This document shows positions 45,360 to 64,000 of a DNA stretch of 64,000 nt, one piece after another (the first letter of the stretch is position 1; each line of letters begins with the position of its first letter). The notes beneath the pieces were generated by a model. The model searched no databases, was not told the origin of the DNA, and saw only the letters and a program-made list of their open reading frames with translations. Location of the stretch: assembly GCF_000385565.1 (NCBI RefSeq), contig NC_021169.1, positions 806,001 through 870,000 on the forward strand, given 5' to 3'. Made by a program: the position numbers and the translations under genes. The DNA comes from Archaeoglobus sulfaticallidus PM70-1 (GTDB taxonomy: Archaea; Halobacteriota; Archaeoglobi; Archaeoglobales; Archaeoglobaceae).

Positions 45360-45388
45360 CTTTATTTTTACCCGTTTGTTTCCGATTC

Positions 45389-46354
45389 TTATTTTTTCAC
45401 TTCGTTGTCGCCATGCAATAGCTTTGCGATGACTTCCACAGCATCGGCAAGCCTGTACGATGGGCGGGAGATTATGTCCGCATCAACAACATAAACCCTC
45501 CCGTTCTCAACCGCATTTATATTCCTGAGCCTGCTATCGCTCATTATCCACTCATAGACTATGTTCTTCTCGTTTCCACCCATTCCGCTTCCGCTGCTTA
45601 CAATGATGACATCCGGATTTGCTCTGAGCAGATCTTCAATGCTGACAATCCTCCATCCATCAAAATCGAAAACATTTTCTCCTCCTGCAAGCTCAATAAC
45701 CTCGCTTATGAATGTATTCTTCCCGCTAACCCAAACAGGATCATGCCAGAGAATGTGCGCAACCCTCACCTTCTTCTTACCTGCAATCTCTTTCCTCACC
45801 CTCTCGATCTTAGAATACATCTCTTTGACAACCTCTTTAGCCTGATCGTATTTTCCTGTAGCCTTCCCGATCAGGATAATATCCTTCATTACATCCTCTA
45901 TCGTTTTAGGATCGAATGCTATCACATCTATTCCAAAATTTCTCAGGGCTTCAATCGTATCCAGACCGTTGCCGTATGTTGCCACAACAAGATCCGGCTT
46001 TAGCGCAAGCACCCTCTCGACATTCACAGTCGAGTAACCACCAACACTCACAAGAACACCGCTCTTCTTTTTTTCCAAGACCTCTGGAGGGTAATTGCAG
46101 TAGTCCGTAACACCAACAACCCTGTCTTCAGCACCTATCGCGAACAGTATTTCGGTGTTGCTGGGAGCGAGCGAGACGATCCTCCGTGGGTTGTCTAGAG
46201 GAATTTTATAGCCAGTATCGTCAACCGGTGTGGCGTTGAAAATCTCGCTAAGATTGAGTTGCAGAGTGGGTTGATCTTTCTCAACCTGAACCGGCTGGGT
46301 GCAGAGAGTAAAAAATAGAGATAGAAACAGAACTGCGAATAATACTCTTCTCAT
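45389..46354 (-). CDS. btuF: BtuF-like corrinoid/iron-chelate-binding lipoprotein
   Basis: A 321-residue substrate-binding protein: signal helix with FTLC lipobox at residues 15-18, RIVSLAPSNTEILFAIGAEDRVVGVTDYCNYP, KPDLVVATYG, VSGKNTFISEVIELAGGENVF and ANPDVIIVSS. This is the BtuF/FepB class III fold. It overlaps by 4 bases the upstream DUF4430/prenyltransferase-repeat gene, which argues for cobalamin-type ligands. The matching permease and ATPase are probably btuC and btuD at 61.1-63.3 kb. An iron chelate remains possible. Confidence 0.85.
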   Translation of the reverse strand: MRRVLFAVLFLSLFFTLCTQPVQVEKDQPTLQLNLSEIFNATPVDDTGYKIPLDNPRRIVSLAPSNTEILFAIGAEDRVVGVTDYCNYPPEVLEKKKSGVLVSVGGYSTVNVERVLALKPDLVVATYGNGLDTIEALRNFGIDVIAFDPKTIEDVMKDIILIGKATGKYDQAKEVVKEMYSKIERVRKEIAGKKKVRVAHILWHDPVWVSGKNTFISEVIELAGGENVFDFDGWRIVSIEDLLRANPDVIIVSSGSGMGGNEKNIVYEWIMSDSRLRNINAVENGRVYVVDADIISRPSYRLADAVEVIAKLLHGDNEVKK

Positions 46355-48807
46355 CTCCTGCTCACCGCTACAGCTACCACCATCGCCAGAATTATTAAGA
46401 TTATGCCGAATCCGGGTGTTTTCTTTTCGGGCGTTGCGGTTAATGCTGAAGTCGGAGTTGCAGTTGCTTCAGGCTTAGCCTCAGGCTGAACTTCCTTGCT
46501 TCCCACAGTTTCCTCTTCAACCTCCCCTTTAGCTTCTTTAACTGCTTCCTTTGTCTCAGTCTCCATTACCTTGATGGGATGCGGTTTCCCCAGCAAGGCC
46601 ATTATCGCACTGACAGTCATATAACCGGGATTTGATGTTTGGTAGGATGTGTACCTGAAGTATCCATCATCTGTCTGCAGGCTCAGCAGATGCTCAACCA
46701 CGCTGATGTTGTTCTTCTTCCATTCAGCTGGATTTAATCCTGCAGCGGTTAAAGCCTGAATCGCCCAGGCATCGCTGGCTGAATTGCTTGCAGAGGTTCC
46801 GAAGTACCTCATACCACCGTCATCGTTCTGTCCCTGCTTCAAATAGTCCAGTGCCTTCTTTATAACATCCGAATCCCTTGGCTCCCCGGCAGCTATTAGA
46901 GCCTGTATGGCTGAAGATGTGTCATCAAAGTCACTTTGCTCACCCACAGCCCATGCAAAACCACCATCCTGGTTCTGCTGGGCTTTCAACCACTCCACAG
47001 ACCTGTTAACATCCTCCCCCACAGATGTTAAAGCGAGTATCCCCCATATAGTCGTGTAAACGAAATCTCCTATCTGTCCATCATCCTTCATTTTGGACTT
47101 TAACTCTGCAACGAGGTCTATGCCATCGAAGTTCCTCGGGTTTTCATCCGCAGCAACCAGAGCCAGAATCGTTCTCGCATAGTCTGCCGTACCCATCTTT
47201 GGCATTTCACCCCTCAGATGATCCCTTATGTAATCTACGGGACTCTTTCCATTCTTTGTCCAGTTGTGTGGATCCTCTCCTGCCGAAACTATGGCCATTA
47301 TTGCCCATGAGGTCTTACCTATGCTACTCTCCTCTCCGGGATTCGAGAATCCTCCATCTTCATTCTGTATGCTTTTCAGCCATTTGAGAGCTATCTGGAT
47401 TCTCTCATCGCTTGCGTTAAGAGGAAAACCCTTCCATTCAACCACTATCGCAAATATACTGAGCGATCTGGCTTCCGTCCTGTAATACAGATATTTTCCA
47501 TCCTCCCTGATAAACTCTGTTGGCAATGCTACCCATGTCCCGTTGTATTTCATCACCACAACCCTCTTCCCATCGGCTACCTCTTTTGGAACCTTGAAAT
47601 CTATCTCCACAGCTACTGAACTATTCACCTCAATTTTGAAGCTCCTGTAAACACTCCCGTATAAAATCCCCTTGGGTGTGTGGCTTTCCTCAACTCTGAC
47701 TTCAACACACTTTGGCTCGTTTGATGATAGAGTTAGATTCGTTATTGACAGCTTTTCTGCAAGCTCTTCCGGAATCTCTACTGCAACTTTCTTCTGAGCC
47801 TGCAGCTGAACAGCTTTGGTGAGATTTTCATTACGGACTTGCTCGCTAACAACCAGCGTTTTAACAGATAAGCTGCTCACACCTTTATCATCTTCAACTG
47901 TGAGCCTGACTTCATACCTTCCAGCTTTTTCGAAGGAATGGGTTACAACTTTCCCGCTTGCAGTATGTCCATCTCCAAAGTCCCAGAGATACGAGATTAT
48001 ATCTCCATCTTCATCATAAGAGAGAGATGCGTTGAATGTGATTCTCTCCCCAGCAACCGGATTCTCCGGCGTGTAATCGAACTTAGCTATGGGAGGTTTA
48101 TTCCCTGTGATCCATTTGATGCTCGCATGAACTTCATAGTTGCTACCAATGCTTATTTCAATCTTGTAGAGAGAGGTTTCTGGAGTTTCGCTCATGCTGC
48201 GGGAGAAGTACCATACTATTCTGTCTCCCGGAGAGATTTCATAATCCGTTGCCACTATTCCCGGAAGGGGCTCATCCGGATAGTTTACCCAGTACATCCA
48301 TCCGGAGGTTTCACCCAGATCTTTGGAGCATAGCCCATTGATGCAGTCAACAAAAATACCCCACTCCTTTAACTCTGGTTTGTAGCTTATGCCAAGCGTT
48401 TCGGTTGCCTTCTTCAATGCTCCATATGCAGTCCTCCACTTGATGGTTTTTCCAAGCTCTGTGAATGTCCCATCTGGGAGATAATTGGCGGGCAACCCAC
48501 CTCCAGAGCTTTCAGTCTTGCAGACAACTATTTTGACAAATTTCGTTACACTCTCATCTGCAATCGCTGTAACATTCAGCACCCCAGTTATTCTCGGTAT
48601 GAAGTATGCCTGATCATCCGTTTTGGCAAATACTGGTGTGCCATTGTTCATTCTGAAGATAATCAGTGCCTGCTGATCCACGCTTGCAGTGACCTTGCTG
48701 TTAACACATCCCCCATTAACATCCAGTGTCAGGGCTGATGACGGAGCTATCAACGGAACCGCCAGCAGAACAATAAGAATAAGAAAAATTCTGAATAGTT
48801 TGAGCAT
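46351..48807 (-). CDS. Surface protein: DUF4430, PKD, PGF-pre-PGF, prenyltransferase-like repeats, PGF-CTERM
   Basis: An 818-residue exported protein with signal peptide (1-26). A DUF4430 domain spans about 95-215 (AYGALKKATETLGISY, SGWMYWVNYPDEPLPG, GDRIVWYFSRS), a PKD domain about 230-320 (LSYDEDGDIISYLWDFGDG), a PGF-pre-PGF-like region 325-460, and an alpha/alpha barrel of squalene cyclase/prenyltransferase-like repeats 465-735 (WLKSIQNEDGGFSNPGEES, WLKAQQNQDGGFAW, YLKQGQNDDGGMRYFG, LQTDDGYFRY). A proline/threonine linker leads to a C-terminal PGF-CTERM helix (TPGFGIILIILAMVV, then R). DUF4430 plus alpha/alpha barrel is the fold pair of intrinsic factor and transcobalamin, so it may capture corrinoids at the surface. 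Confidence 0.82.
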   Translation of the reverse strand: MLKLFRIFLILIVLLAVPLIAPSSALTLDVNGGCVNSKVTASVDQQALIIFRMNNGTPVFAKTDDQAYFIPRITGVLNVTAIADESVTKFVKIVVCKTESSGGGLPANYLPDGTFTELGKTIKWRTAYGALKKATETLGISYKPELKEWGIFVDCINGLCSKDLGETSGWMYWVNYPDEPLPGIVATDYEISPGDRIVWYFSRSMSETPETSLYKIEISIGSNYEVHASIKWITGNKPPIAKFDYTPENPVAGERITFNASLSYDEDGDIISYLWDFGDGHTASGKVVTHSFEKAGRYEVRLTVEDDKGVSSLSVKTLVVSEQVRNENLTKAVQLQAQKKVAVEIPEELAEKLSITNLTLSSNEPKCVEVRVEESHTPKGILYGSVYRSFKIEVNSSVAVEIDFKVPKEVADGKRVVVMKYNGTWVALPTEFIREDGKYLYYRTEARSLSIFAIVVEWKGFPLNASDERIQIALKWLKSIQNEDGGFSNPGEESSIGKTSWAIMAIVSAGEDPHNWTKNGKSPVDYIRDHLRGEMPKMGTADYARTILALVAADENPRNFDGIDLVAELKSKMKDDGQIGDFVYTTIWGILALTSVGEDVNRSVEWLKAQQNQDGGFAWAVGEQSDFDDTSSAIQALIAAGEPRDSDVIKKALDYLKQGQNDDGGMRYFGTSASNSASDAWAIQALTAAGLNPAEWKKNNISVVEHLLSLQTDDGYFRYTSYQTSNPGYMTVSAIMALLGKPHPIKVMETETKEAVKEAKGEVEEETVGSKEVQPEAKPEATATPTSALTATPEKKTPGFGIILIILAMVVAVAVSRR

Positions 48808-50642
48808 CAGCTCACCTCGCTTACAGCGTAGTCGCTTATGGCGAGAAGGTTGTTCGGATACTCGTTCAGCCTGTATATTCCAGCATACAGCTTATAGCTC
48901 CCGCTCTGAACCTGCTGTGGAACATGAATTAGCACAGGAACCTTTACTTCCTGATTTGCTGTCGCATAATAGGTTGCTATCCCTGCCAAAGCTTCTCCAC
49001 CATCATTCGTGCCACTAACAACAGCCACAAACCACCCGCTGTCGAGTGATGTCACATTCAGCCATGTGAGGATGCTTCCACCTTTAGTGCCGCTGGAGAC
49101 AGTAAAGGAGCTTATACCCGCACTCTTAACCTCAACATTTATCTTTAGCGTGATGGTCGCATTGGAGAGTGTGCTCGTCCATGGGCCGTATGTGAAGTAA
49201 ACAATATCTCCATCGTTCAGATCGTAGAGGTTTACACCGACACTGGGCTGAGTATCATTAACCCAGTACATCCAGAACAGCGTGTTCGTGTTGCTGATTC
49301 CAAGTATGGACGGCACGAACAGCGAACCCCATGTTGCGTACCAGCTATCATCGAGCGTGTAGTTGAATGATATCTCAGCACCATCTGTTTTACCACCTGT
49401 GCTTGCGAAGTGCAGTGCTGAAAGGGCTGAGGTTTTGTTAACCTGATATGTTTTGTTGCCAATATTCAGGCTGAGCTTTCCGGGATACAACGTTACATTG
49501 ACCTCTATAAGGCCTGAGGAGTTAAAGCAGTAGAGATACCCGCTATCCGCACCGATATATAGCCTGTTATTGGCTATGTACGGAGAGGACATTATGTTGT
49601 AGTAGTTCCCTGCCGGGGGTGTCAGCCTGTAGTACCAAAGCATGTTCCCACTAAAAGCATCCACAGCGTAAATCGTTCCCTGAGGGTTATTAGTTGCGAA
49701 GTAAACTATACCTCCAGCAACAGCTGGAGAGGAATCTATCTTGCCGTTTGCTGTGAAATTCCATAACTCAGCCCCATTCGTTGCGTTAAAGCAGTAGAGC
49801 TTTCCTTCATAGGATCCAATGTAGATGTTACCATAAGCTATGGCTGCGGTGGACATCGTCCCATTGAATGACACGCTCCAGGCCAAGCTGCCATCCATGT
49901 TCAACGCATACAGCCTGCTTTTAGTCGCGAAGAATACCTTGTTGTATCCTATGGCGGGTGTGTTGGTTATCTGGCTATCAACTGAGAAATTCCATATCTC
50001 CACACCATTCTCGTTCAAACAGTAAAGCCTGTTGACCGAGTCGTTTCCGGCAAAGAATATCCTTCCATTGTATGCAGAGGGAGATGTGTAGTGTGAGACC
50101 TCATTGCCTGTTGTGAATTTCCACAATATCCCACTATCGTTTATAGCCCATAGCGTGCCGTTTGAGAATGTCACCACATAAATCGTGTTATTGTAAGCGA
50201 GCGGTGATGAGGCTATTCCCCACCACGAAGGAGAAGTTTCAAGCTGATAGCTTTTTTCTATAACCCCGCTGGTTGCGTTAACAAAGTATAGATATCCTGA
50301 CAGGCTTCCAACCACCACACTGTTGCCGATAACTGCCACGCTTGACGCTCCAGTTATCTGACTGTTCCTCCATTCAATGCTTCCAGTAGTTGCATTTAGA
50401 CTATACAGCCCACCATTCCAATCCCCCCACCCATACCAGTTCGTGACGAAGATGTGTCCATTCCAGTAAACGGGTGAGGCTCCAACAAGCCCAGTAAGTT
50501 CGGTTTTCCAAGCAAGAGCAGGCAATATTCTTTCAGATGTGAAGTTTCCGGCTCTCTGCTCATCTCCATGGAAGTTTGCCTGAGCCTGCGTAAGCGGAAT
50601 CGTGCAAAGAATTACAAGCATTACAACCAAAAGCCTCTTCAT
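48807..50642 (-). CDS. Secreted PQQ-type beta-propeller protein with DUF4430
   Basis: A 611-residue exported protein (signal peptide ending near VTQAQA, about 20). Residues 35-385 are PQQ-like beta-propeller blades (SVYWNGHIFVTNWYGWG, YLYFVNATSGVIEKSY, KLYCFNATNGAELWNF, TIYAVDAFSGNMLWYY). A DUF4430 domain follows at about 385-500 (FWMYWVNDTQPSVGVNLYDLNDGDIVYFTYG), then a C-terminal beta region. It is the first gene of a three-gene operon; its stop and the next ATG share a base. A corrinoid-binding or presenting role is inferred. It has no obvious C-terminal membrane anchor. Confidence 0.8.
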   Translation of the reverse strand: MKRLLVVMLVILCTIPLTQAQANFHGDEQRAGNFTSERILPALAWKTELTGLVGASPVYWNGHIFVTNWYGWGDWNGGLYSLNATTGSIEWRNSQITGASSVAVIGNSVVVGSLSGYLYFVNATSGVIEKSYQLETSPSWWGIASSPLAYNNTIYVVTFSNGTLWAINDSGILWKFTTGNEVSHYTSPSAYNGRIFFAGNDSVNRLYCLNENGVEIWNFSVDSQITNTPAIGYNKVFFATKSRLYALNMDGSLAWSVSFNGTMSTAAIAYGNIYIGSYEGKLYCFNATNGAELWNFTANGKIDSSPAVAGGIVYFATNNPQGTIYAVDAFSGNMLWYYRLTPPAGNYYNIMSSPYIANNRLYIGADSGYLYCFNSSGLIEVNVTLYPGKLSLNIGNKTYQVNKTSALSALHFASTGGKTDGAEISFNYTLDDSWYATWGSLFVPSILGISNTNTLFWMYWVNDTQPSVGVNLYDLNDGDIVYFTYGPWTSTLSNATITLKINVEVKSAGISSFTVSSGTKGGSILTWLNVTSLDSGWFVAVVSGTNDGGEALAGIATYYATANQEVKVPVLIHVPQQVQSGSYKLYAGIYRLNEYPNNLLAISDYAVSEVS

Positions 50643-50821
50643 ATGAGGCAGTATGCAAAACCACTTTTAAGCTTTTCCATTTTACTGGACATCAAGTAAA
50701 ATAAATTTTAGCAACTTGATTATAATCTCAGATTTCTGGCACAAAATTAACAAACACCTATGTAAAATTTGCGATAATTTGTTACATTTACATCTTCAAT
50801 TTACAGCTTCAGGAGCAACAA

Positions 50822-51706
50822 TTAATCAAACAGATGACAGCGAACCTTTCTATCCCCCAGTCGGACCATTTCAGGATGATCCGAGCATATTTCCATTCTT
50901 TTCGGACATAGGCTGTAAAATTTGCACCCGCTACGCTCTGACCGCTGAGTTAGTTCAAACGACTCCTCTACAGACCTCACAAGCATCTCGGTGTAAGGAT
51001 GAAGCGGCCTATCCAGAACATCAACACCCTCCTCAACTATCTGCCCGGCAAACATCACAGCTACTCTATCCGCAACTATTCTGGCAAGCTCCAAGTCGTG
51101 GGTTATGAAAAGATAGGCCATGCCAAGTTTTTTGTGTAGAGAGACGAGCAGGTTTACTATCGACGCCTGAACAGACATGTCGAGCATTGAGGTTGGCTCA
51201 TCACATACAATGAACTCCGGTTCCACAGCAATCGCCCTCGCTATCACAACCCTCTGCAACTCCCCACCGCTGAGTTCATGCGGATAGCGATATAGGTGTT
51301 CTTCGCGAAGCCCAACCATCTCTATGAGGTTATGAATAATATCCCTGCTGCAATCAAGCCCGTGAATCCTCAACGGCTCTGCTATGCTGTCGTAAATTCT
51401 CCATCTGGGATCTAAAGCATCTTCCGGATGCTGAGGGATTAGTTGCATTCTTCTTCTCACTCTTCGGAGGTCTCCTGCCTTCATTCTGACAAGATCTAAA
51501 CCATCAAAATAAATCTCCCCCCTCGTTGGCCTTACCAGCATCAAAAGCATCCTGCCAAGCGTTGACTTTCCACTTCCGCTCTCTCCAACCAGAGCCAGTA
51601 CTTCACCCCTGTTGATCTCGATGTCAACACCATCAACAGCGACAATCCTGTGCTTTGAGAAGAATCCCGACTCGAACACCTTGTAAAGCCCAACACCCTT
51701 AAGCAT
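50822..51706 (-). CDS. Peptide/nickel-type ABC transporter ATPase (DppF/OppF-like)
   Basis: A 294-residue ABC ATPase: Walker A GESGSGKST, signature LSGGELQR, Walker B FIVCDEPTSMLD, and the OppF-type C-terminal region with a cysteine motif (FYSLCPKRMEICSDHPE). It is the last gene of the leftward operon and overlaps the dppD-like gene by 8 bases. It would energise uptake of peptides, nickel-chelates or similar. Confidence 0.9.
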   Translation of the reverse strand: MLKGVGLYKVFESGFFSKHRIVAVDGVDIEINRGEVLALVGESGSGKSTLGRMLLMLVRPTRGEIYFDGLDLVRMKAGDLRRVRRRMQLIPQHPEDALDPRWRIYDSIAEPLRIHGLDCSRDIIHNLIEMVGLREEHLYRYPHELSGGELQRVVIARAIAVEPEFIVCDEPTSMLDMSVQASIVNLLVSLHKKLGMAYLFITHDLELARIVADRVAVMFAGQIVEEGVDVLDRPLHPYTEMLVRSVEESFELTQRSERSGCKFYSLCPKRMEICSDHPEMVRLGDRKVRCHLFD

Positions 51707-52625
51707 AGAGCCAGCACCTCACCTCACCATCGAAAGGTGGCTCCTTCAGGCATTTATCCGTAGCATGATCACATCTGGGATGGAACCTGCATCCTTCCGG
51801 AGGGTTAACCATGCTCGGAGAGTAGCCCTTTATCGGATTCAGACCCCTTGATGGTAGGGAGTTCAACAGGGCTTTTGAGTACGGGTGAAGGGGTTCCTCA
51901 AAAAAGGTTCTGGCATCACAAACCTCCACAATCTGCCCGCAGTACATGACTGCCACCCTGTCGGCAAGTCTTTCAGCGAAGGGTAGATCATGAGTTATAA
52001 TCAGCAAAGATGGTTTGCTGTTCTTCTTGATCTTCCTGAAAAGTTCTGCAACCCGAACCTTCTTTGTCACATCCACACCCTTGGTTGGCTCATCTGCAAT
52101 GATCAGTCTTGGCTGTGTTGATGTTCCCATTGCAACCAGTGCTCGTTGCCTCATCCCTCCGCTGTACTGATGCGGATACTGGTTGACCCTTTTCTCGGCA
52201 GGATTGATGTCGAAGTACCTCAGCAAACCAACTACCCTCTGAATTGCAGTTTTTCTGTCAATGCCCATATGCACTTCCATTGGCTCAGCAATCTGAATCC
52301 CAACCCTGAGAACTGGATTAAGGGAAGTTGCAGGGTTCTGTGGAACCCAAGCTATTTCCCTCCCTCTGATCTCCCTCAACCCCTCCTCTGGCAACTCAAG
52401 CAGGTTCAATCCATTAAAGAGTATTTTACCACCAACCCTAACATTTTCAGGCAGCAATCTTAAAATCGTCATTCCCAAAACGGATTTTCCGCTCCCACTT
52501 TCTCCGATCAACGCTAAGGCTTCGCCTTCACTGACATGAAAGCTTACACCATCAACGGCTTTTACTGTCATATTTTCCAGAACAAAATGAACATGCAGAT
52601 CTTTTACAACCAGCACCTCATCCAT
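51699..52625 (-). CDS. Peptide/nickel-type ABC transporter ATPase (DppD/OppD-like)
   Basis: A 308-residue ABC ATPase with Walker A GESGSGKSV, signature YSGGMRQR, Walker B LIIADEPTKGVD and an OppD-type C-terminal oligopeptide domain (PPEGCRFHPRCDHATDKC). ATG 52625 is preferred over GTG at 52634, since GGGTGG lies 5 bases upstream. It follows the Gate-domain gene and precedes the dppF-like gene. Confidence 0.9.
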   Translation of the reverse strand: MDEVLVVKDLHVHFVLENMTVKAVDGVSFHVSEGEALALIGESGSGKSVLGMTILRLLPENVRVGGKILFNGLNLLELPEEGLREIRGREIAWVPQNPATSLNPVLRVGIQIAEPMEVHMGIDRKTAIQRVVGLLRYFDINPAEKRVNQYPHQYSGGMRQRALVAMGTSTQPRLIIADEPTKGVDVTKKVRVAELFRKIKKNSKPSLLIITHDLPFAERLADRVAVMYCGQIVEVCDARTFFEEPLHPYSKALLNSLPSRGLNPIKGYSPSMVNPPEGCRFHPRCDHATDKCLKEPPFDGEVRCWLYA

Positions 52626-52748
52626 TTCCTCCACCCATTCTCAATATAACACGCAGAAGTACAGTAACATTGGTGAAATAAAATATTTTCTAATTTTAAC
52701 ACCAATTATAAAATTACACTAGATTAGTAATACCAAAATAGTTTAATC

Positions 52749-53603
52749 TCAAAATAAAAACCAAACAGCTATGATGATTCCAAAAGTTGCACAAATCCTT
52801 ATAACTCCTCCAACTAATACTATTTTTGTACCCAAATCAACCCCAAATAATCCAACATAGTAAGGTAGCCTATGGGCGAAGATATATCTCAAACTCCCAA
52901 TTGGGCTTGCGACTAGCAATACAATTAAAGCCTGCTTAAATGTTATGGTATCCATTATCTCCGAAAGAGCGGCATAGGCAGCAAGTGGATTTGCTATGCG
53001 AAGAGGAATTATAGCTAAAGCCTCTGGTGGTAGCGGAAGGGGTAAATCAAAATTTATCAAGCCTACATCCAGCAATACAAAGGCTACAATTGTGATTGGA
53101 AGTGCTATTGCCACATACCTTTTCAATGTCCGCTTCGACCTTTTAAAACCGTTGTAAATAGCCTCTCTAATATTTCTTGAAGGAATGCTAATTTCTACTT
53201 CATCGTTGTCTTTAAGCAGCAATCTTCCAGCAAGAAGGGCAATTCCAGCTACTATGGCTCCATTCAGTATGAATAAACATATATATGTAATGCCAAGAGG
53301 TCCAAGCAATGGGATGATAGCTGGTGCTATATAGGCTATACTTTCATAAACCGTCTGAGGAAACCATGTTGCTATGCTTGTTATGTATGCCTCAGTTCTG
53401 CTAATTTTTCTATTTCTATAAATTTCCGCAATCATTGATATTGCCGCCTGAGGTGATCCAAAAGCTGTAGCTATGGCAATACAACTTCCTGAACTCAACT
53501 TAGAAAGCTTAATAAATGGCTTAAGAACCGGTAAAACCCTGTAAAAAATGCCAAGTTCTATTGCAATGTTTGCCATTACAATTCCTGCAACAACGTAAGG
53601 CAA
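52749..53603 (-). CDS. Gate-domain (nucleoside recognition) membrane protein
   Basis: A 284-residue membrane protein with 7-8 helices and two nucleoside-recognition/Gate repeats (GSCIAIATAFGSPQAAISMIAE, IATWFPQTVYESIAYIAP; then LLVASPIGSLRYIF). The start is uncertain: TTG 53603, while the frame stays open 27 bases further upstream to a stop, with no ATG. The N-terminus begins directly in the first helix, so the protein may be slightly truncated. It lies between dppC and dppD, an unusual insertion for this operon type. Substrate unknown; metal ion or nucleoside efflux are possibilities. Confidence 0.72.
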   Translation of the reverse strand: MPYVVAGIVMANIAIELGIFYRVLPVLKPFIKLSKLSSGSCIAIATAFGSPQAAISMIAEIYRNRKISRTEAYITSIATWFPQTVYESIAYIAPAIIPLLGPLGITYICLFILNGAIVAGIALLAGRLLLKDNDEVEISIPSRNIREAIYNGFKRSKRTLKRYVAIALPITIVAFVLLDVGLINFDLPLPLPPEALAIIPLRIANPLAAYAALSEIMDTITFKQALIVLLVASPIGSLRYIFAHRLPYYVGLFGVDLGTKIVLVGGVIRICATFGIIIAVWFLF

Positions 53604-53627
53604 AACAGAAAACCAGATTAAACGGCT

Positions 53628-54497
53628 TTAATAATGCTTTGAAGCATACTCTCTCACCCGTGGATCGAGTAAATCTCTTAAACCATCGCCAAGTAAGTTA
53701 AATGCAAGAACTGTGATCATTATTGCTAAGCCCGGAAAAATTGTTAGCCACGGAGCAGTAGTCATAAAATTCTTCCCCTCGTTAAGCATAGTCCCCCATT
53801 CGGGTGTTGGTGGCTGAGCTCCTAAGCCCAAGAAGCTCAAGCCTGTTATAGACAGTACTATGTGACCCATGTCAAGCGTTGCAAGAACGATAATTGGGGC
53901 TATTGCATTTGGTATCACATGCTTAACAAGTATATACACATCACTCGCCCCCAGCACTTTTGCTTGCGTGACGAATTCCATCTCTTTAATTGAAAGAACA
54001 CAACTCCTTACGATTCTTGCATAACTAGCCCAGCTTGTGAGAGCTATGGCAATCACCAGATTTTTTAATGATGGACCAAGAATTCCAACCAGTGTTATTG
54101 CTAGAATCAATCCTGGAAATGATAAGAGTACATCTACGAATCTCATTATTACCTCATCAACTTTTCCACCAAAATATGCTGCAATGGAACCAAACATTAT
54201 ACCCAAAAACATAATTATTGCTATTGCAAACACAGAGACGAAGAGAGAGATGCGAGTCCCATAGATAATTCTACTCAGAACATCTCTACCGAGCTGATCT
54301 GTGCCAAGCAGGTGATTTAAGTTAGGTTTTTGAAGTTTTTCCTTCATATTGACTTCGTAAGGATCATAAGGAGATATAACATCTGCAAATACTGCAACGA
54401 GAAACAGACATAAAATTATCAAAAGTGCGATGAAGTTGACTGTTGATATTGATGTCCTAGTTTTAGCTATAACACTTGCAATTTCGTTAGGCCTCAT
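53628..54497 (-). CDS. Peptide/nickel-type ABC permease (DppC/NikC-like)
   Basis: About 290 residues with an N-terminal DppC/OppC domain (MRPNEIASVIAKTRTSIS), YDPYEVNMKEKLQKPNLNHLLGTDQLGRDVLSRIIYG and an EAA-type motif (MEFVTQAKVLGASDVYILVKHVIP). ATG 54497 is chosen with an AGGT site; alternatives at 54506 and 54524 overlap dppB further. It forms the membrane channel with the DppB-like protein. Confidence 0.9.
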   Translation of the reverse strand: MRPNEIASVIAKTRTSISTVNFIALLIILCLFLVAVFADVISPYDPYEVNMKEKLQKPNLNHLLGTDQLGRDVLSRIIYGTRISLFVSVFAIAIIMFLGIMFGSIAAYFGGKVDEVIMRFVDVLLSFPGLILAITLVGILGPSLKNLVIAIALTSWASYARIVRSCVLSIKEMEFVTQAKVLGASDVYILVKHVIPNAIAPIIVLATLDMGHIVLSITGLSFLGLGAQPPTPEWGTMLNEGKNFMTTAPWLTIFPGLAIMITVLAFNLLGDGLRDLLDPRVREYASKHY

Positions 54498-55425
54498 GTG
54501 TCTCATACCTGATACGAGGATCAAGGAAGAGGTAGATTACATCGACAGTTAAATTCGTCAGGATAAAAAATAACGCTACTAGGAGTACGAACCCCTGAAT
54601 AACAGGATAATCCCTTGCATAAATCGAAGACACAAAGTAACTGCCCACACCCGGCCATGCGAATATAGTTTCAACTATTACTGCTCCAGTCGCTGCGTGT
54701 CCTGAATAAATACCTATTGCTGTAATAACGGGAATAAATGCATTTTTTAGGGCATGTCTCGTAATTATAAGCTTCTCTGGCAAACCTTTAGCCTTTGCCA
54801 CGATTATATACTGTTGGTGTAAAACTTCAAGCAGACTGACTCTCATCAGCCTCGTTAATGTTCCGGCAAATGACATGCCAAGAGTTAAAGCAGGAAGAAC
54901 TATGTTCTTGGCTCCATAACCAAAAGCTGGAAGTATGCGTAATTTAACAGAAAATATTAGAATAAGAAGCAACCCCAGCCAGAAGTTTGGCATCGAAATA
55001 CCAAATAATGACAGTATTCTGCAGATGTGATCTATAGCTGTGTTGTGTTTTAAAGCTGAAAGAATCCCCAAAGGTATTGAAACCGCTACAGCAATCAGAA
55101 TTGATGCAGCAATAAGCTGTAAACTTGCTGGAAAACGCGTTAGGTATCCCTTCAGCACCGGTTCACCCGTTCTTAGCGATACACCCAAATCGCCATGCAA
55201 AATTTTTGAAAGCCATATAAAGTACTGGATATAAAGAGGCTTATCTAAATCATGCTCTTTTTTAAAAGCCTCTATTTGTTCTTTAGTCGGTTCTCCTTGT
55301 AATTGTCTTTCAAGAATCATCTCAGCCGGATCTCCCGGAGCTAAATAGATTATTAAAAACGAAAGCAGTGATGCCACAATCATCACCAATGGCATCAAGG
55401 TTAGGCGTTTTACTATGAATCTCAT
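54487..55425 (-). CDS. Peptide/nickel-type ABC permease (DppB/NikB-like)
   Basis: A 312-residue permease with six helices: N-terminal LTLMPLVMIVASLLSFLIIYLAPGDPAE, ISMPNFWLGLLLIL and an EAA-loop (VAKAKGLPEKLIITRHALKNAFIPVITAIG). It follows dppA by about 35 bases and overlaps dppC by 11 bases. Confidence 0.92.
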   Translation of the reverse strand: MRFIVKRLTLMPLVMIVASLLSFLIIYLAPGDPAEMILERQLQGEPTKEQIEAFKKEHDLDKPLYIQYFIWLSKILHGDLGVSLRTGEPVLKGYLTRFPASLQLIAASILIAVAVSIPLGILSALKHNTAIDHICRILSLFGISMPNFWLGLLLILIFSVKLRILPAFGYGAKNIVLPALTLGMSFAGTLTRLMRVSLLEVLHQQYIIVAKAKGLPEKLIITRHALKNAFIPVITAIGIYSGHAATGAVIVETIFAWPGVGSYFVSSIYARDYPVIQGFVLLVALFFILTNLTVDVIYLFLDPRIRYETHEA

Positions 55426-55461
55426 AGAAATCTAAAAATTTAAAAATTAAAATTACTGAGA

Positions 55462-57045
55462 TTACTCTATCCACACAGAGCTGAAATCTGGCTCTCCAAC
55501 AAATTTGATGCCCTTCACATTCTTCTTTGCTACTATAAATATCGAGTCGTAGTACAGTGGCACAACTGCATCCTTGTCATAAACGAGATTGTAGAATTCT
55601 ATCCAACCTTCTTTTCTGTCGTTTTCATCGAACGGTAGCACAGCTTTTCTAACAGCATTTGCTATTTCATTATCCTCGAATGCACCATATTTAAACTCTG
55701 GAGCATCAGGGTTGAACCTCCCATCAGTTCTCTGATAGATCCTTCTTTCTGGTCCGCCAACATAATAAAATCTCAAGTCATATTCGCCCTTCTTCTGCTT
55801 CTCCTTATATGGACCGCTCTCAAGTACTTCAATTTCAATGTTTATTCCGACTTTCTTTAACTGTGCTTGAATCAGTTCTGCAAGTTTGACCTTATCCGGA
55901 TTCTCTCCTCTGAGTATAAGTTTGGCATTTATACTTTCGTATCCAGCCTCCTTTAGCAATTCTTTCGCCTTTTCTGGGTTGTATTCATACTTAATATCCA
56001 CCTCTTTTACATATGGGGCTTTATCACAGTACAATGCTCCCTCTGCCCCTCTAACCCAGCCATCGAAGAGTTGTGATATCTCATCTCTGTTTATTGCGTA
56101 GTTCACAGCTTTTCTTACAAGTTCGTTGTCCCATGGGCTATTTTCATAGTTGAAAGCCAGTATCGTTGTCATCGGTATCTCATTTTTGTAAATCACAAAT
56201 CCTTCATCCTGCAAAGATTTCAGAACATTTCTTGGCGTATAATAGCTGCCACCATGGTAGTGATCGACGATTGCATCTATTTCACCACTCCTCAAAGCAA
56301 GAACCCTTGTCTCAGCATCTGGAATTATTTTCACTACAAGTTTTTCGAGCTTTGGTTTCTCTCCGTGGTAGTATTCATTCGGGACAAAGACGGCATACTG
56401 GTTTTTAACATACTCTCCAACTTTCCATGGTCCAGTTCCAATCGGATTGACAATTTTACCAGTTACATTTCCTTTAGGTTCAACGGAGTTCGGGCTTATT
56501 ATTCCCAGATGGAATTCCGCAAACGCAACCAGATCTATGTATCCATTCTGTCCTTCTTTGTAGTGTATTGCAACAGTATATGGATCGATTATTTCTACAT
56601 TTTCTATTCTGTCAACTTCAGTCCAGTGGTAGTATTTTAAAGCCTTTAATCTGTCTATTGTAAATTTCACAGCATCAGCATTGAATTCACTTCCATCACT
56701 GAACTTGATGCCCTTCTTTAGATAAAAGATAATCGTTTTACCATTATCTTTTATCTCCCATGATTCGGCTAATTGTGGTATCAGCTTACCGTCTCTGTAA
56801 TCAACAAGTCTCTCCAGAAGAAGCATTTCCGGCAAAAAATCCATTGTTTTTGGAGTTTCAATATTTAAGTCGTTTCCAAATCCGCAATAGCCTATTGTAA
56901 GGACCTGTTCTGGCTTGGTAGTGGGTTCAGTAGGTGTAGGTACCACTGTAGGTGTTTTCTCTGGTGTTTTAGCTGAAGTTTCTGGTTTGCCTGCACATCC
57001 CAGCAAAAGTAATACTACAAGAATGCATACTACAAACTTTTTCAT
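55462..57045 (-). CDS. Peptide/nickel-binding ABC lipoprotein (DppA/NikA-like)
   Basis: A 527-residue SBP_bac_5 protein: signal and lipobox VLLLLGC (about residue 16), a threonine/proline linker, SWEIKDNGKTIIFYLKKGIKFSDGSEFNADAVKFTIDRL, VNPIGTGPWKVGEYV, MTTILAFNYENSPWDNELVRKAVNYAINRDEI and EKAKELLKEAGY. ATG 57045 is preceded by GAGGTGA and preferred over an earlier start at 57063. The presence of a DUF4198-like gene upstream hints at nickel or cobalt, but peptide binding is equally compatible. Confidence 0.92.
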   Translation of the reverse strand: MKKFVVCILVVLLLLGCAGKPETSAKTPEKTPTVVPTPTEPTTKPEQVLTIGYCGFGNDLNIETPKTMDFLPEMLLLERLVDYRDGKLIPQLAESWEIKDNGKTIIFYLKKGIKFSDGSEFNADAVKFTIDRLKALKYYHWTEVDRIENVEIIDPYTVAIHYKEGQNGYIDLVAFAEFHLGIISPNSVEPKGNVTGKIVNPIGTGPWKVGEYVKNQYAVFVPNEYYHGEKPKLEKLVVKIIPDAETRVLALRSGEIDAIVDHYHGGSYYTPRNVLKSLQDEGFVIYKNEIPMTTILAFNYENSPWDNELVRKAVNYAINRDEISQLFDGWVRGAEGALYCDKAPYVKEVDIKYEYNPEKAKELLKEAGYESINAKLILRGENPDKVKLAELIQAQLKKVGINIEIEVLESGPYKEKQKKGEYDLRFYYVGGPERRIYQRTDGRFNPDAPEFKYGAFEDNEIANAVRKAVLPFDENDRKEGWIEFYNLVYDKDAVVPLYYDSIFIVAKKNVKGIKFVGEPDFSSVWIE

Positions 57046-57049
57046 CCAA

Positions 57050-57734
57050 TCACCTCGCAACAACAGTAAGCGTAGCAGTCAGATTCCTCTTATCATAAAC
57101 GCCCATTGATATTTCATCAACATACCTAGCAACTATGACATTTACACCCTCCTTTAGAGTTATCTCACAAAATCCATCTACTGCTACTTCGTCAATACCA
57201 TCTTTTGTACCAACTTTTACAACACCGTTTACACTTTTTCCTCTGAAAATTAGCTGGATTCTCATTTTATCTCCTGATTTGAACGGTTTCAGTACTTCGG
57301 GCATTATTTCAAACTCGAATCCAGCTGCGAATGGCTTTATTTCGTCCATTTCATCGTTAAAAGTGTAAGCTTTGATATATCCCCAACCATCTTGTTTCTC
57401 TAATGTTATATCCCGAAGCTAGTCTCCTATCTCCAAAAATCCATTTGTTATCGTCAGTAATTGAGTATATGCCTCTGTCGAGTTCTACACCAACCATATA
57501 CGGCTTTTCAGCCTCAAACTCAAGAAACAACCCACCTTTCTGCGATGATTCATTATCTCTCCCTACGACCACTGGTTTCTCTCCATCCGAATCTATTACA
57601 AAAGCTCTTTTAATGCTTAGAGGGTCAAGCATTCCTTCTGTTTCTGGGTAATGTCCCCATTTTAGGTGTGCCCTGTTTTCTTCACACTCTATCCAAGGTT
57701 CGTGGTTGACAAGTTTGAGTACTTCCTCCCTCAT
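57050..57734 (-). pseudogene. DUF4198-like (metal-uptake associated) gene broken by a frameshift
   Basis: Two adjacent minus-strand frames are halves of one gene. 57734-57357 gives AHLKWGHYPETEGMLDPLSI, VVVGRDNESSQKG, MVGVELDRGIYSITDDNKWIFGDRR; the other frame continues from about 57410 as ITLEKQDGWGYIKAYTFND into MDEIKPFAAGFEFEIMPEVL (57349-57050) and ends with NLTATLTVVAR. Dropping one base in the GGG at 57411-57413 joins them. The order, with a hydrophilic N-half and an immunoglobulin-like C-half, is that of DUF4198 proteins, often linked to nickel or cobalt uptake. It lies 5 bases from dppA. It could be an assembly error. Confidence 0.65.
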
Positions 57735-57908
57735 ATTACTACACCACCGATTAAACTGTCGACATAAGTAATAAAAAAATTTTGATTTTTAGCAATATTT
57801 AAGAAAAGAAATTAAATGAGTATGAAATATATTAAGAGGATGACAATTAATGAAAAAAGAAGAGTGGTTTAGTTGATAGTGTAAAAATAACATTAAAATA
57901 AAGCAAAC

Positions 57909-58535
57909 TTATTTTTCACAAACAATCATTAAATTTATCCTTTCGCAATTCAATTTTCTAATTTTGAGTGTTAAATTGCATTTATCCGCTATCTTTTTAA
58001 ATTTCCTCAAATCAATCCCATTTCCAAACGGTAATTTTCTGGCAATTTCTTCACTGTAGTGGTGATTTGCAGTTTTCTCTTCTTTATTTTCACTTTCAAT
58101 TAATATCAGCTTACCACCCTGCCTTAAAACCCTCACCCACTCTTTAATTGCCTTTTCCGGATTTGGAAGTGTCCATAAAACATGCCTTTCTATAACTGCA
58201 TCAAATGTATTGTCTTCAAAAGCTAGGTTCTCTGCATCGTCTATTTTGAACAAAATGTTATGACCCTTTTCTTCTGCTTTTTCTCTTGCTTTGCTCAACA
58301 TCCCTTCTGATAAATCTATCCCTACAACCTCATGCCCCAACTCAGCCAGAATTAGAGATACAAAACCAGTTCCACAACCAACATCCAGAACTTTCTTTCT
58401 ATTTTCAAGCATTTCTTTTAATGCTTCTTTAACAACTTTCTTATCCTTTTCTGATTTTATACCGTGTGCTGGAATGTTCTCATAGTTCTCAGAATGTTCA
58501 TCCCATCGAGATTTAATATAACCCTTAATGTCCAT
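57909..58535 (-). CDS. Class I SAM-dependent methyltransferase
   Basis: A 208-residue methyltransferase: KVLDVGCGTGFVSLILAELGHEVVGIDLSEGMLSKARE (motif I and following), FEDNTFDAVIERHVLWTLPNPEKAIKEWVRVLRQGGKLILIE. ATG 58535 is preferred over 58562 because GGTGGTG precedes it. Substrate unknown. It is upstream of the DUF4198-like gene and the peptide/nickel ABC operon, on the same strand, with a 175-base gap, so it may modify a compound handled by that system. Confidence 0.85.
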   Translation of the reverse strand: MDIKGYIKSRWDEHSENYENIPAHGIKSEKDKKVVKEALKEMLENRKKVLDVGCGTGFVSLILAELGHEVVGIDLSEGMLSKAREKAEEKGHNILFKIDDAENLAFEDNTFDAVIERHVLWTLPNPEKAIKEWVRVLRQGGKLILIESENKEEKTANHHYSEEIARKLPFGNGIDLRKFKKIADKCNLTLKIRKLNCERINLMIVCEK

Positions 58536-58714
58536 AACACCACCTACTTTTTCCTCAAACACACCGTATTAGCACGAATATTAATAGCATAAAAATCTTT
58601 CTAATTTTAACACCAATTATGAAATCAGATGAAATATAGTAATATCAAAAGTGCGACACAGAAAACACAAAAAATATATAGAATAAAAAAGAATAATAAA
58701 AAATAAATTAAGGC

Positions 58715-60437
<1,723 letters not shown>

Positions 60438-60587
60438 TCCATCACCGAACTCTCGGATTCTGCAAGTTTATTAAAAAATTTTTAATATTCTCACTTAATT
60501 GCTAATAATTTTTCACAAATACTGCGATTACATTCACAAATTATTAGATATAGATTGTAAATAATAAAAATTTTAAAATAGCCCAAC

Positions 60588-61154
60588 TCACCACTTGCTC
60601 AGACTATCCTTAACAGCTCCGCATACAGCCTCCCACAGCCTTGCCCCCAGATCACTTGCAGGGCCTGCATATCTGTAGTACCTCCCTCTCTCCGTTGTCA
60701 GGACAATTACAGCATCCGTATTTGTTCCCGTAAAGTTGTGTCCCATCTCGAGAAGGGCTTTGCTTTTTGCTTCCGTTACAGTTATTATCGCATTCAACAT
60801 TGCAGATCTGCTCACTCTGCAATCCAGAATTGCTATGATGTTAATCGTTCCAATCAGTTCATTCGGATTTCTGACTCCTGCGGTAACGAAAACGGTAACC
60901 TCACCACAACTCTGCACACTGAGCTTGTCCATCGGCACTGAAGTCAACAGACCGAAGTAGGACTTTACTCCAAGCCCTCTGGCTACATCCCTCAGATATT
61001 TTACAGGGTCCACATAATCGAAGTCGTCGCCTACAGTATGGTTAAAAGCGTATCTAACTTTCTTCCAGCCTCCAAGCAAGCCTGTACTTACACCAAAAAA
61101 TTTTCCTTCCACTATAACAACATCATCATCAACCCAGTAATTTTCGTAAGGCAT
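60588..61154 (-). CDS. cbiZ: Adenosylcobinamide amidohydrolase
   Basis: A 188-residue CbiZ: VVIVEGKFFGVSTGLLGGWKKVRYAFNHTV, GLLTSVPMDKLSV, VFVTAGVRNP, INIIAILD, ITVTEAKSKALLEMG, GTNTDAVIVLTTERG and YAGPASDLGARLWEAV. It cleaves the aminopropanol side chain of (adenosyl)cobinamide to cobyric acid, allowing salvage of incomplete corrinoids. It is the last gene of btuC-btuD-cbiZ and overlaps btuD by 26 bases. Confidence 0.93.
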   Translation of the reverse strand: MPYENYWVDDDVVIVEGKFFGVSTGLLGGWKKVRYAFNHTVGDDFDYVDPVKYLRDVARGLGVKSYFGLLTSVPMDKLSVQSCGEVTVFVTAGVRNPNELIGTINIIAILDCRVSRSAMLNAIITVTEAKSKALLEMGHNFTGTNTDAVIVLTTERGRYYRYAGPASDLGARLWEAVCGAVKDSLSKW

Positions 61155-62349
61155 CGAGAACTTCCTCCTCGCTGTTCACAACCACAGCTTTTTCCAGAAT
61201 ACGAGAGTAAATTTCTTCAGCCTTAGAATCAGTAAAATTCCTGCTTTTGAAGGGAGTTCTGTTAACAACTATCAGCTTACCCAGTTTCGCAGCATACTCG
61301 GACGCCAGCAAGTTCTTAAAGTTCCCCCAACCAAAGCTAAGATTTGAGAGAACAACTGCATCGACATTCTCAATCATTTTCAGATTCTGTTCATGAGATT
61401 CCTCGCTGATTGGGGTAAATGGGGCTTCATCGATGGACTCTCCACCGATCTCAGTTATTAGTTCCCAGTCAGAATCCAGTGCATTGATTACTCCGGCAGA
61501 AATTCTGTAGCCAGCTTCACTCAAAATGTGAAGCAAATCCTTCCCGCTTCCTCCCCCGCAGATTACATGCACCCTTCTGTTACCAAATCTTACCTTCTTT
61601 CTTGGCACAACATAAACGCTCTTACCATGCCGCTTCACACTGACATCTGCCCCGAAAACCTCTCTGATTGTATTCTCGGTTATAACCTCCTCAGCCGTTC
61701 CCGCATAAATGATCTTCCCCTTCTTAACCATGAGAATTCTACTTGCAAATGAGGCCGCAAGATTGATGTCATGGATAGCCAGCAGCGCGGAACAACCCTC
61801 TTTAACTTTTTCCCTGACGATCTCCATGATCTCAATCTGGGCCGAGATATCCAGATGTGCTGTCGGCTCATCGAGGAGCATGATCTGAGGTTGCTGTGCA
61901 AAAACTCTGGCGAGCATAACCTTCTGTTTCTCCCCACCACTGAGCTCTAAGAAACTCCTCTGAGCAAAATCCTCCATTCCAACCTCTTTCAGAGCGTTTA
62001 AGGCAATGTTTATGTCCACACTGCTTGCCCTCTTTATCCCACTTAGATAGGGAGTTCTGCCGAGTAGAACTATATCAAGAACACTCAAACCCGTTTCGGG
62101 AGTTTCCTGAGGAAGGAAGCCCATCCTTTTCGATGCCGAATCTATCGTTTTTATCTTCCTTCCATCGAGCAGAACAACACCCCTCACTGGCCTGAGGATG
62201 CCGAAGATCGTTCTGAGCAGTGTTGACTTTCCGCTCCCATTCGGTCCGAGGAGGGCCACAAAATCGTGATCACTAACCTCGAATGTCATATCCCTGAGGA
62301 CTTCGCTGCTTCCAAGCCTTACACTCACACCCTTAACCTTCAGCCTCAT
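61129..62349 (-). CDS. btuD: Corrinoid ABC transporter ATPase with C-terminal extension
   Basis: A 406-residue BtuD/FecE-type ATPase with Walker A LLGPNGSGKST, LSGGEKQKV, MLLDEPTAHLD and a switch histidine in LLAIHDINLA. Beyond residue 245 lies an extra region of about 160 residues (RRVHVICGGGSGKDLLHILSEAGYRISAGVINALDSDWELI..., KLIVVNRTPF). It looks like a Rossmann-type alpha/beta domain that is known in some archaeal corrinoid transporter ATPases. ATG 62349 directly follows the btuC stop and has GGAGGAAGG upstream; the longer start at 62394 overlaps btuC. Confidence 0.92.
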   Translation of the reverse strand: MRLKVKGVSVRLGSSEVLRDMTFEVSDHDFVALLGPNGSGKSTLLRTIFGILRPVRGVVLLDGRKIKTIDSASKRMGFLPQETPETGLSVLDIVLLGRTPYLSGIKRASSVDINIALNALKEVGMEDFAQRSFLELSGGEKQKVMLARVFAQQPQIMLLDEPTAHLDISAQIEIMEIVREKVKEGCSALLAIHDINLAASFASRILMVKKGKIIYAGTAEEVITENTIREVFGADVSVKRHGKSVYVVPRKKVRFGNRRVHVICGGGSGKDLLHILSEAGYRISAGVINALDSDWELITEIGGESIDEAPFTPISEESHEQNLKMIENVDAVVLSNLSFGWGNFKNLLASEYAAKLGKLIVVNRTPFKSRNFTDSKAEEIYSRILEKAVVVNSEEEVLDALRKLLG

Positions 62350-62350
62350 C

Positions 62351-63307
62351 TCAGACCTTCCTCCACAGTATGTAAACGAAGAAGGGTCCTCCAAGCATTG
62401 CTGTTATCGCCCCAACAGGCAGCTCCCCGGTTGTCGCAGTTTTGGCAACCAGATCAATAAGGGGCATAAATAGCATGGCAAAGAGGATTGTTAGAGGCAG
62501 GAGCTTCTGATGCTCCTCTCCAACAAGCATTCTCATCGTATGCGGGATAATAATCCCGACAAAACCGATAACCCCGCTGACAGCCACAGCAGATGAAGTT
62601 AATACAGCTATCACAGCAATCAGATACTTCCTGAATCTATTAACATCTACTCCAACAGCCATCGCATGCTCATCACCCAGCAGCAGGGCGTTGAGGTTCC
62701 AAGAGTTAATAAGCAGATATGCTATTCCTGCTATGGTTATGGGCAAAGCGAAGTAAACCTCGCTCCACTGCGGGTTTGAGAAGCTACCCATTATCCAGAA
62801 AACAACCTTGTGCATGCTCTGAGCGAAAAAATAGATTATCAGTGAAGTCAGCCCGGAAAAGAACGATGCTATTGCTATCCCTGCGAGGAGTATTGCATAG
62901 GTCTGATCTCTGAATCTGCTGGTTGTGCCGATCTCGTAAACAAGATACGAGGTTAAAAGGGCCGATACGAAAGCCAGAATAAGCTTGTTCTGGATAGTTC
63001 CAAAACCAAGAACAGTTGCTATTGCTGCTCCAACACTCGCGCCACTCGCCACTCCGAGAATGTATGGCTCAGCAAGAGGATTGCGAAACAGTGCCTGCAT
63101 TGCACATCCAGAAGCCGATAGCGATGCCCCAACAAGGACTGCGGTTAAAAACCTTGGTAGTCTCGTATCTATAACTATGCTCCGCTCTATCTTATCAGCA
63201 TTTCCGGTGAGAACCTTCAGCAACAAATCGTTTTGATAACCCAAGCTGAGATAAGAAACGAACACGACTGCATTCAGCATCAGCAGTGCGATAACCATTC
63301 TTTTCAC
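62351..63307 (-). CDS. btuC: Corrinoid ABC transporter permease
   Basis: A 318-residue FecCD/BtuC permease with about ten helices: RLPRFLTAVLVGASLSASGCAMQALFRNPLAEPYILGVASGASVGAAI, NSWNLNALLLGDEHAMAVGVDV and GVIGFVGIIIPHTMRMLVGEEHQKLLPLTILFAMLFMPLIDLVAK. It pairs with BtuD. The separately located BtuF-like lipoprotein at 45.4-46.4 kb is the likely partner. Vitamin B12 type ligand is supported by cbiZ in the operon. Confidence 0.92.
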   Translation of the reverse strand: MKRMVIALLMLNAVVFVSYLSLGYQNDLLLKVLTGNADKIERSIVIDTRLPRFLTAVLVGASLSASGCAMQALFRNPLAEPYILGVASGASVGAAIATVLGFGTIQNKLILAFVSALLTSYLVYEIGTTSRFRDQTYAILLAGIAIASFFSGLTSLIIYFFAQSMHKVVFWIMGSFSNPQWSEVYFALPITIAGIAYLLINSWNLNALLLGDEHAMAVGVDVNRFRKYLIAVIAVLTSSAVAVSGVIGFVGIIIPHTMRMLVGEEHQKLLPLTILFAMLFMPLIDLVAKTATTGELPVGAITAMLGGPFFVYILWRKV

Positions 63308-63455
63308 GGAGTCAAGCAGATTTGAATATTAGATAAAGTTTACCTTTCATTTTGTTCATCTATAGAACTTTTTCTCGATTATTATTGATTATTACCGATT
63401 ATTACTTTAACCTCAATTAACAAAAATAGTTAAGTATCAATTTGGCGAAGTATGT

Positions 63456-64000
63456 ATGATGGTTAAAACTCTCAGCGAGCTGAAAGGCTACAACATCGTA
63501 GGAAAGCATTCCGCAGTCAAAACATGCCTCTGGTTGAAGAAGTCATTAAAAGACGAGGGAGTATGCTATAAGGAGAAGTTCTATGGTATAAAAAGCCATA
63601 GATGCCTGCAGATATCCCCAGCGCTCAGGTGCAATCTGAGCTGCATACACTGCTGGAGACCGCTGAGCCTGATGCCTGAGATAGATGGCTGGGATGATCC
63701 TCAGTTCATTGTCGAGGAGAGCATTAAGGCTCAGCAAAGACTGCTCAGCGGATTCTGGGGTACTAAGGGTGTGAACACAAAAAAGCTCGAAGAGGCTTAC
63801 AAGCCAAATCAGGTTGCGATAAGCCTGATCGGGGAGCCAACCCTCTATCCATTCATAGCTGAACTGGTTGATGAGTTCAACAGCAGAGAGATGACAACCT
63901 TTGTTGTAACAAACGGCACCAACCCGAATGCTGTAGATAGATTGGAGCCGTACCAGCTTTACATCAGCCTGACAGCATACAGCGAATCATCCCATAAAAC
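63456..64000 (+). CDS. tRNA-Phe 4-demethylwyosine synthase (TYW1/Taw1), partial
   Basis: The first 181 residues of a radical SAM protein are in the window and the rest runs off the edge. Motifs: the N-terminal HSAVKTCLWLKKSLKDEGVCYKEKFYGIKSHRCLQISPALRCNLSCIHCWRP with the CxxxCxxC triad, followed by SLIGEPTLYPFI, TTFVVTNGTNP and YQLYISLTAY. These are the signatures of archaeal TYW1/Taw1, which makes 4-demethylwyosine at position 37 of tRNA-Phe. It is divergent from btuC. Starts at 63456 or 63459 are both ATG. Confidence 0.9.
   Translation, partial: MMVKTLSELKGYNIVGKHSAVKTCLWLKKSLKDEGVCYKEKFYGIKSHRCLQISPALRCNLSCIHCWRPLSLMPEIDGWDDPQFIVEESIKAQQRLLSGFWGTKGVNTKKLEEAYKPNQVAISLIGEPTLYPFIAELVDEFNSREMTTFVVTNGTNPNAVDRLEPYQLYISLTAYSESSHK

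Follow-up and report, generated by a model that had tools for sequence, protein, structure and literature searches.

How archaea take up vitamins at the cell surface has hardly been studied. Burroughs et al. (2007, PMC1796856) defined the SLBB superfamily and, within it, a transcobalamin-like clade that spans Gram-positive bacteria, planctomycetes, and euryarchaea, and they tied the bacterial proteins to CbiO/CbiQ transport. In the accessible text of that paper the archaeal ligand was left open, and because archaea often make B12, it was suggested that archaea might scavenge a distinct metabolite. We found no later papers on archaeal transcobalamin-like proteins in a literature search that covered few subscription journals. 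The operon described here gives specific evidence on the question raised in 2007: are corrinoids handled by transcobalamin-like proteins even in archaea, many of which make their own? It lies in a window of 64,000 nucleotides (the whole stretch of DNA that was analysed) from Archaeoglobus sulfaticallidus PM70-1. A trio of genes in this heat-loving archaeon probably encodes surface proteins that catch B12-type molecules for the cell's only importer of this kind. The three genes and their main domains are as follows.

48807..50642, minus strand: P1, 611 aa; secreted propeller, DUF4430 (transcobalamin-type beta domain), and C-terminal beta domain
49185..49337, minus strand: DUF4430 domain of P1, aa 436-486 matched; Pfam 3.2e-9
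46351..48807, minus strand: P2, 818 aa; DUF4430 - PKD - PGF-pre-PGF - alpha6/alpha6 barrel - PGF-CTERM
48202..48432, minus strand: DUF4430 domain of P2, aa 126-202; conserved Cys155-x4-Cys160; Pfam 1.8e-9
46573..47427, minus strand: alpha/alpha barrel of P2, aa 461-745; SDxDDT at 625-630, His706
45389..46354, minus strand: BtuF-like substrate-binding lipoprotein (P3), 321 aa; lipobox ...LFFTLC; Peripla_BP_2

By their ORF coordinates, P1 and P2 overlap by 1 base and P2 and btuF by 4 bases on the same strand, as in a translated operon. In Pfam, P1 has PQQ-type propeller matches and a DUF4430 domain (37.6 bits, curated cut-off 23.8). P2 has a DUF4430 domain (38.3 bits against the same cut-off of 23.8), a PKD domain (1.1e-24), and matches to the toroid families SQHop_cyclase_C (5e-17) and Prenyltrans (1.8e-13), and NCBIfam adds PGF-pre-PGF (43.8 bits, cut-off 28). 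Both proteins carry export signals in their sequences, and P2 is closed by a PGF-CTERM anchor, in which TPGF is followed by a hydrophobic stretch and then RR. The genome also has a gene for the archaeosortase that is cognate to PGF-CTERM proteins (7e-70). P3 matched Peripla_BP_2 at 5e-42 and the BtuF profile at 4.4e-37. The AlphaFold2 models reached a pLDDT of 93.7 and a pTM of 0.88 for P1, and 88.5 and 0.67 for P2. The coordinates and the Pfam and NCBIfam assignments all agree with the preliminary description of this DNA, which had proposed three overlapping genes of this domain make-up. P1 and P2 are exactly the two DUF4430 genes of the single-contig genome (2,076,931 bases). Since there are no other DUF4430 genes in the genome and the trio recurs across the class, the association is far beyond chance.

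A btuC-btuD-cbiZ operon had also been placed in the same window, and it was found at 60588-63307 on the same strand as the trio. Its genes, and the block that lies between it and P1, are as follows.

62351..63307, minus strand: BtuC-like permease, the genome's only strong FecCD protein
61129..62394, minus strand: BtuD-like ATPase; corrinoid ABC transporter ATPase profile 7.6e-80, below the equivalog cut-off
60588..61154, minus strand: CbiZ, adenosylcobinamide amidohydrolase (corrinoid salvage); PF01955 143 bits, cut-off 27
50822..60437, minus strand: block of unrelated genes, outside the system, lying here between cbiZ and P1

In corrinoid salvage, CbiZ turns adenosylcobinamide into adenosylcobyric acid (see the summary in PMC3541065). 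Its gene overlaps btuD and is present in a single copy in the genome. P3 is the genome's only PF01497 protein, and BtuC alone is a strong FecCD protein, the second FecCD match in the genome being at 3e-11. Therefore, BtuF almost certainly works with the BtuCD beside CbiZ. From 44000 to 64000 of the window we found no cobalamin riboswitch and no other Rfam family. AT-rich TCAAAT...TTTA-like elements are present upstream of P1 (50642) in several genera, and similar ones lie ahead of btuC (63307); they are a possible operator.

The ~10 kb block contains an opp/nik-type transporter, a methyltransferase, and an ammonium transporter. Among the opp/nik-type transporter genes sits one for a Gate-domain membrane protein (52749-53603), and the methyltransferase (57909-58562) matched CpaM, a corrinoid-protein-associated methyltransferase, at 2.9e-22, which is below the cut-off. 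In genome G009 of the same genus the operon is unsplit (L040), and the OppA of the block was not found at 1e-100. Genome G011, also of the same genus, has no DUF4430, yet its OppA is 96% identical to that of the block.

DUF4430 was found in 37 of the 59 genomes of the class Archaeoglobi, in which the relatives with names belong to Archaeoglobus and Geoglobus, and 38 loci were fetched for gene-by-gene comparison. As counted with a simple ORF caller and pairwise scores in genomes many of which are draft, P1 immediately precedes P2 in 33 of 34 loci, and btuF is immediately 3' of P2 in 27 of the 31 loci with enough sequence (29 of 31 within ~1.1 kb). The genes btuC-btuD-cbiZ-P1 are contiguous on one strand in 13 genomes from five genera (G001-G009, G022, G023, G031, G032), and P2-btuF follow next, except in G023 and G032, where the fetched sequence ends. 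Six further genomes from two other genera have btuC directly after btuF. The genome of the window has the same operon, split by the ~10 kb block. Across the class, genomes with DUF4430 tend to have CbiZ as well (32/5/11/11; Fisher p = 0.005, a test that ignores phylogeny and completeness). The btuF of G001 (L032:6876-7810) is broken into two overlapping ORFs, by a frameshift or a sequencing error. The genes beside btuC in L055, which by their length had been candidates for cobamide assembly, were rejected, since they are a carbamoyltransferase, NAD synthase, and APS kinase, and the genes preceding P1 in L068 are DNA primase and GINS.

A profile made from 24 DUF4430 domains of archaeal P1 and P2 homologues was searched against the PDB (177,635 sequences). 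Its seven best matches were transcobalamin-1 (4e-4), transcobalamin-2 (9e-4 to 0.013), and intrinsic factor (0.018), and the first match from any other family came at 0.28, with the rest worse. With a profile of P2 domains only, transcobalamin-1 again ranked first (0.0015, over a shorter stretch) and a collagen chain was second (0.013), and the single P2 sequence did not match transcobalamin-family structures in the PDB search. With the 24-domain profile, haptocorrin SWGPYITCIQGLC aligned to the archaeal WG-x-[FY]-V-x-C-I-x-x-x-C. Both cysteines of Cys155-x4-Cys160 in P2 are kept in 26 of 27 P2 homologues, and they are present in human haptocorrin too. These PDB matches make the beta domain of P1 and P2 transcobalamin-like at the profile level, as had been predicted from the window. 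The sequences show in each of the two proteins a beta-grasp domain with homology to the beta domain that animal B12 carriers have, and this reading is well supported. Transcobalamin was absent among the best 50 Foldseek matches of the full-length P2 model, which were dominated by PKD, cyclase, and macroglobulin matches.

In a scan of 84,980 species genomes, relatives were found in Archaeoglobi, Methanosarcinales/Methanophagales, Methanomicrobiales, and Clostridia. Fifteen Methanomicrobiales records (Methanoculleus, Methanocalculus, Methanogenium, Methanofollis) encode the barrel and BtuF in a single polypeptide, and the fusion in L095 was confirmed by Pfam. Beside these fusions lie genes for P1-like proteins, which contain as many as four DUF4430 domains, and btuC and btuD are also near them in many of the longer contigs. 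The fusion is strong independent evidence that the barrel and BtuF would act together. Relatives of P1, P2, and BtuF with broken frames were also present in L110, a contig binned in a Candidatus Nitrosotalea MAG, which is probably misbinned methanogen or Methanophagales DNA.

In Clostridia, one or more DUF4430 genes are followed by those for CbiQ, an ECF ATPase, and a barrel with SLH domains, sometimes with cbiZ leading. Of 14 such loci, which were picked for length and scanned without a matched background set, 13 have a cobalamin riboswitch upstream on the same strand. In 10 loci the riboswitch lies 90-215 bases from the first DUF4430 gene; the gap is 903 bases in L113, where it holds the leading cbiZ, and 1.8-2.3 kb in L125 and L139. 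In the fourteenth locus, L116, the sequence starts inside the first gene. Four loci (L112, L118, L131, L142) have a tandem pair of cobalamin riboswitches before the operon.

Four independent lines argue for a role in corrinoid uptake: the DUF4430 homology, the link with cbiZ and btuCD, the fusion of barrel and BtuF, and the riboswitches on bacterial relatives. We consider it very likely that P1, P2, and BtuF form the extracellular arm of a BtuCDF corrinoid importer, alongside CbiZ salvage, with a predicted capture and hand-over. The preliminary description had proposed such an uptake route, and the synteny, the fusion, the bacterial riboswitches, and the PDB profile matches support it well; the fused proteins independently support its further proposal that the ligand is handed to BtuF.

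The ligand of this BtuCDF-family importer might instead be a different tetrapyrrole or metal chelate, such as heme, a siderophore, or an F430-like compound. FecCD/PF01497 importers carry many chelates, and the best PDB sequence match of BtuF (4m7o, 2e-30) is named an iron-binding protein; heme-binding proteins match as well, and solved vitamin-B12-binding proteins match at 7e-30. For BtuC, BtuD, and BtuF, B12 profiles are among the best matches with scores below the NCBI equivalog cut-offs, which counts against the corrinoid reading. So do the negative riboswitch scan of 44000-64000, the lack of a specific match between the P2 barrel and the transcobalamin alpha domain, and the presence of cbiD and cbiB in the genome, with which the host may make corrinoids itself, and CbiZ is missing from 5 of the 37 DUF4430-bearing Archaeoglobi. 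However, this corrinoid-salvage enzyme is in the same gene string in five genera, the bacterial relatives are preceded by cobalamin riboswitches, and the solved relatives of DUF4430 that were found are B12 carriers only. Another chelate is thus unlikely to be the ligand. If corrinoids are taken up, the presence of cbiD and cbiB implies that this would add to the cell's own synthesis or, as CbiZ suggests, salvage cobinamide.

The barrel of P2 raises a different alternative. In the AlphaFold2 model, 12 helices (residues 468-738) form an alpha6/alpha6 barrel, and its nearest relatives by both sequence and structure are class II terpene cyclases and prenyltransferases. The nearest structures in Foldseek include the single-domain cyclases 8pak and 6sbb (TM 0.59-0.60, scaled to the target length). 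Membership of PF01122, the transcobalamin alpha domain, was rejected: the barrel matched it in Pfam at E = 0.031 (13.7 bits, cut-off 25), and none of 55 barrel relatives matched it at 0.01. An hhalign comparison of the barrel with the transcobalamin alpha domain, which covered only ~118 residues of that domain (PDB sequences, 2bb5), gave a probability of 22.7% over 36 columns, and 20 shuffled controls gave at most 1.3%. Since the matches are cyclase-like and PF01122 was not reached, the P2 barrel cannot be called a transcobalamin alpha domain.

Among 99 exported barrels of archaeal and bacterial origin, 98-99 retain the motif SDxDDT (46918-46935, P2 aa 625-630), and His706 is present in 92 of 99 barrel relatives. 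SDxDDT aligns with DxDD, at the catalytic position of drimenyl diphosphate synthase and squalene-hopene cyclase; it is a class II terpene cyclase motif, yet it is conserved in a putative corrinoid carrier. The motif and the nearest structures would fit an enzyme in place of a carrier, either an exported descendant of single-domain class II terpene cyclases or one that modifies corrinoids. But export, the BtuF fusion, and cobalamin-regulated operons fit poorly with prenyl-diphosphate chemistry, and the signal sequence and surface anchor of P2 argue against prenyl cyclase activity, so that we regard an enzyme as quite improbable. Even less credible is a structural S-layer or adhesive role for P1 and P2, with btuF as an accidental neighbour: archaeal surface proteins often have PKD and PQQ-propeller repeats, and the clostridial relatives have SLH domains, but the trio is conserved across Archaeoglobi, the barrel is fused to BtuF, and the bacterial relatives are under riboswitch control.

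As the extracellular arm of a corrinoid importer, P1 and P2 would capture cobamides or cobinamide at or beneath the S-layer. By analogy with transcobalamin, the DUF4430 domain and the barrel might close on the corrin: DUF4430 would be the lid, and the barrel, with SDxDDT and His706, would grip the other corrin face, either inside P2 itself or across the P1-P2 pair. From P1/P2 the ligand would pass to the membrane-anchored BtuF, as we infer mainly from the fusion and the operon, and then to BtuCD. CbiZ would convert incoming cobinamide to cobyric acid, which would enter the late synthesis steps. A fuller scheme, which we offer tentatively and with somewhat less than even confidence, is a corrinoid relay in which the lid and barrel of a transcobalamin-like trap are split over two surface proteins, and in which methanogens fused the barrel to BtuF as one capture-and-delivery molecule. 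The barrel would have been recruited from the terpene-cyclase toroid family and not from the transcobalamin alpha domain, and thus the trap would have come together on at least two occasions. The proteins named here, including the single-chain barrel-BtuF fusions, are testable candidates for the passage of a ligand from a surface trap to an ABC importer.

Several known systems resemble this one in part. BtuG of Bacteroides, a seven-bladed lipoprotein said to be restricted to Bacteroidetes (PMC6143338), is also a beta-propeller accessory protein that captures B12 at the surface, but the P1 propeller resembles BamB/PQQ propellers. A BtuG-like propeller in P1 was rejected, since BtuG was absent among the best 50 structural matches, where BamB/PQQ propellers were best. 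The clostridial DUF4430-CbiQ-ECF operons share the DUF4430 proteins, the same barrel family, and a nearby cbiZ (L112, L113, L125). They differ in having an ECF transporter and not BtuCDF and a barrel anchored by SLH domains, and no propeller was seen in them.

The proteins of Burroughs et al. (PMC1796856) are likewise exported and multidomain, combine a transcobalamin-type beta-grasp domain with toroid, immunoglobulin-like, or propeller domains, and occur as paralogous pairs beside transporter genes. An Archaeoglobus protein with immunoglobulin-like domains (gi 11498993) was already named there, as were a Clostridium fusion with a propeller and toroids that flank the beta domain on either side. 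The idea of corrinoid capture itself is partly published, but the accessible text of that paper mentions neither a CbiZ-BtuCDF operon nor a fusion of barrel and BtuF. Both this fusion and the logic of the archaeal operon are new. So far as sequence comparison can tell, the present evidence clearly moves the question of the archaeal ligand towards corrinoids.

Finally, the operon is relevant to the origin of the animal B12 carriers. DUF4430 with an alpha/alpha barrel had been described as the domain pair of transcobalamin and intrinsic factor, and this holds for the architecture and the general fold of 12 helices, but not for the barrel family, the domain order, or the PKD and PGF-pre-PGF between the two. 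In the animal proteins the barrel is N-terminal and the beta domain C-terminal, whereas in P2 the order is reversed and PKD and PGF-pre-PGF separate the beta domain from the toroid. Furthermore, the P2 toroid does not belong to PF01122, and P2 is membrane-anchored. Like transcobalamin, haptocorrin, and intrinsic factor, P2 combines a homologous beta domain and an alpha/alpha toroid in one protein, and a CIxGxC stretch is common to haptocorrin and P2.
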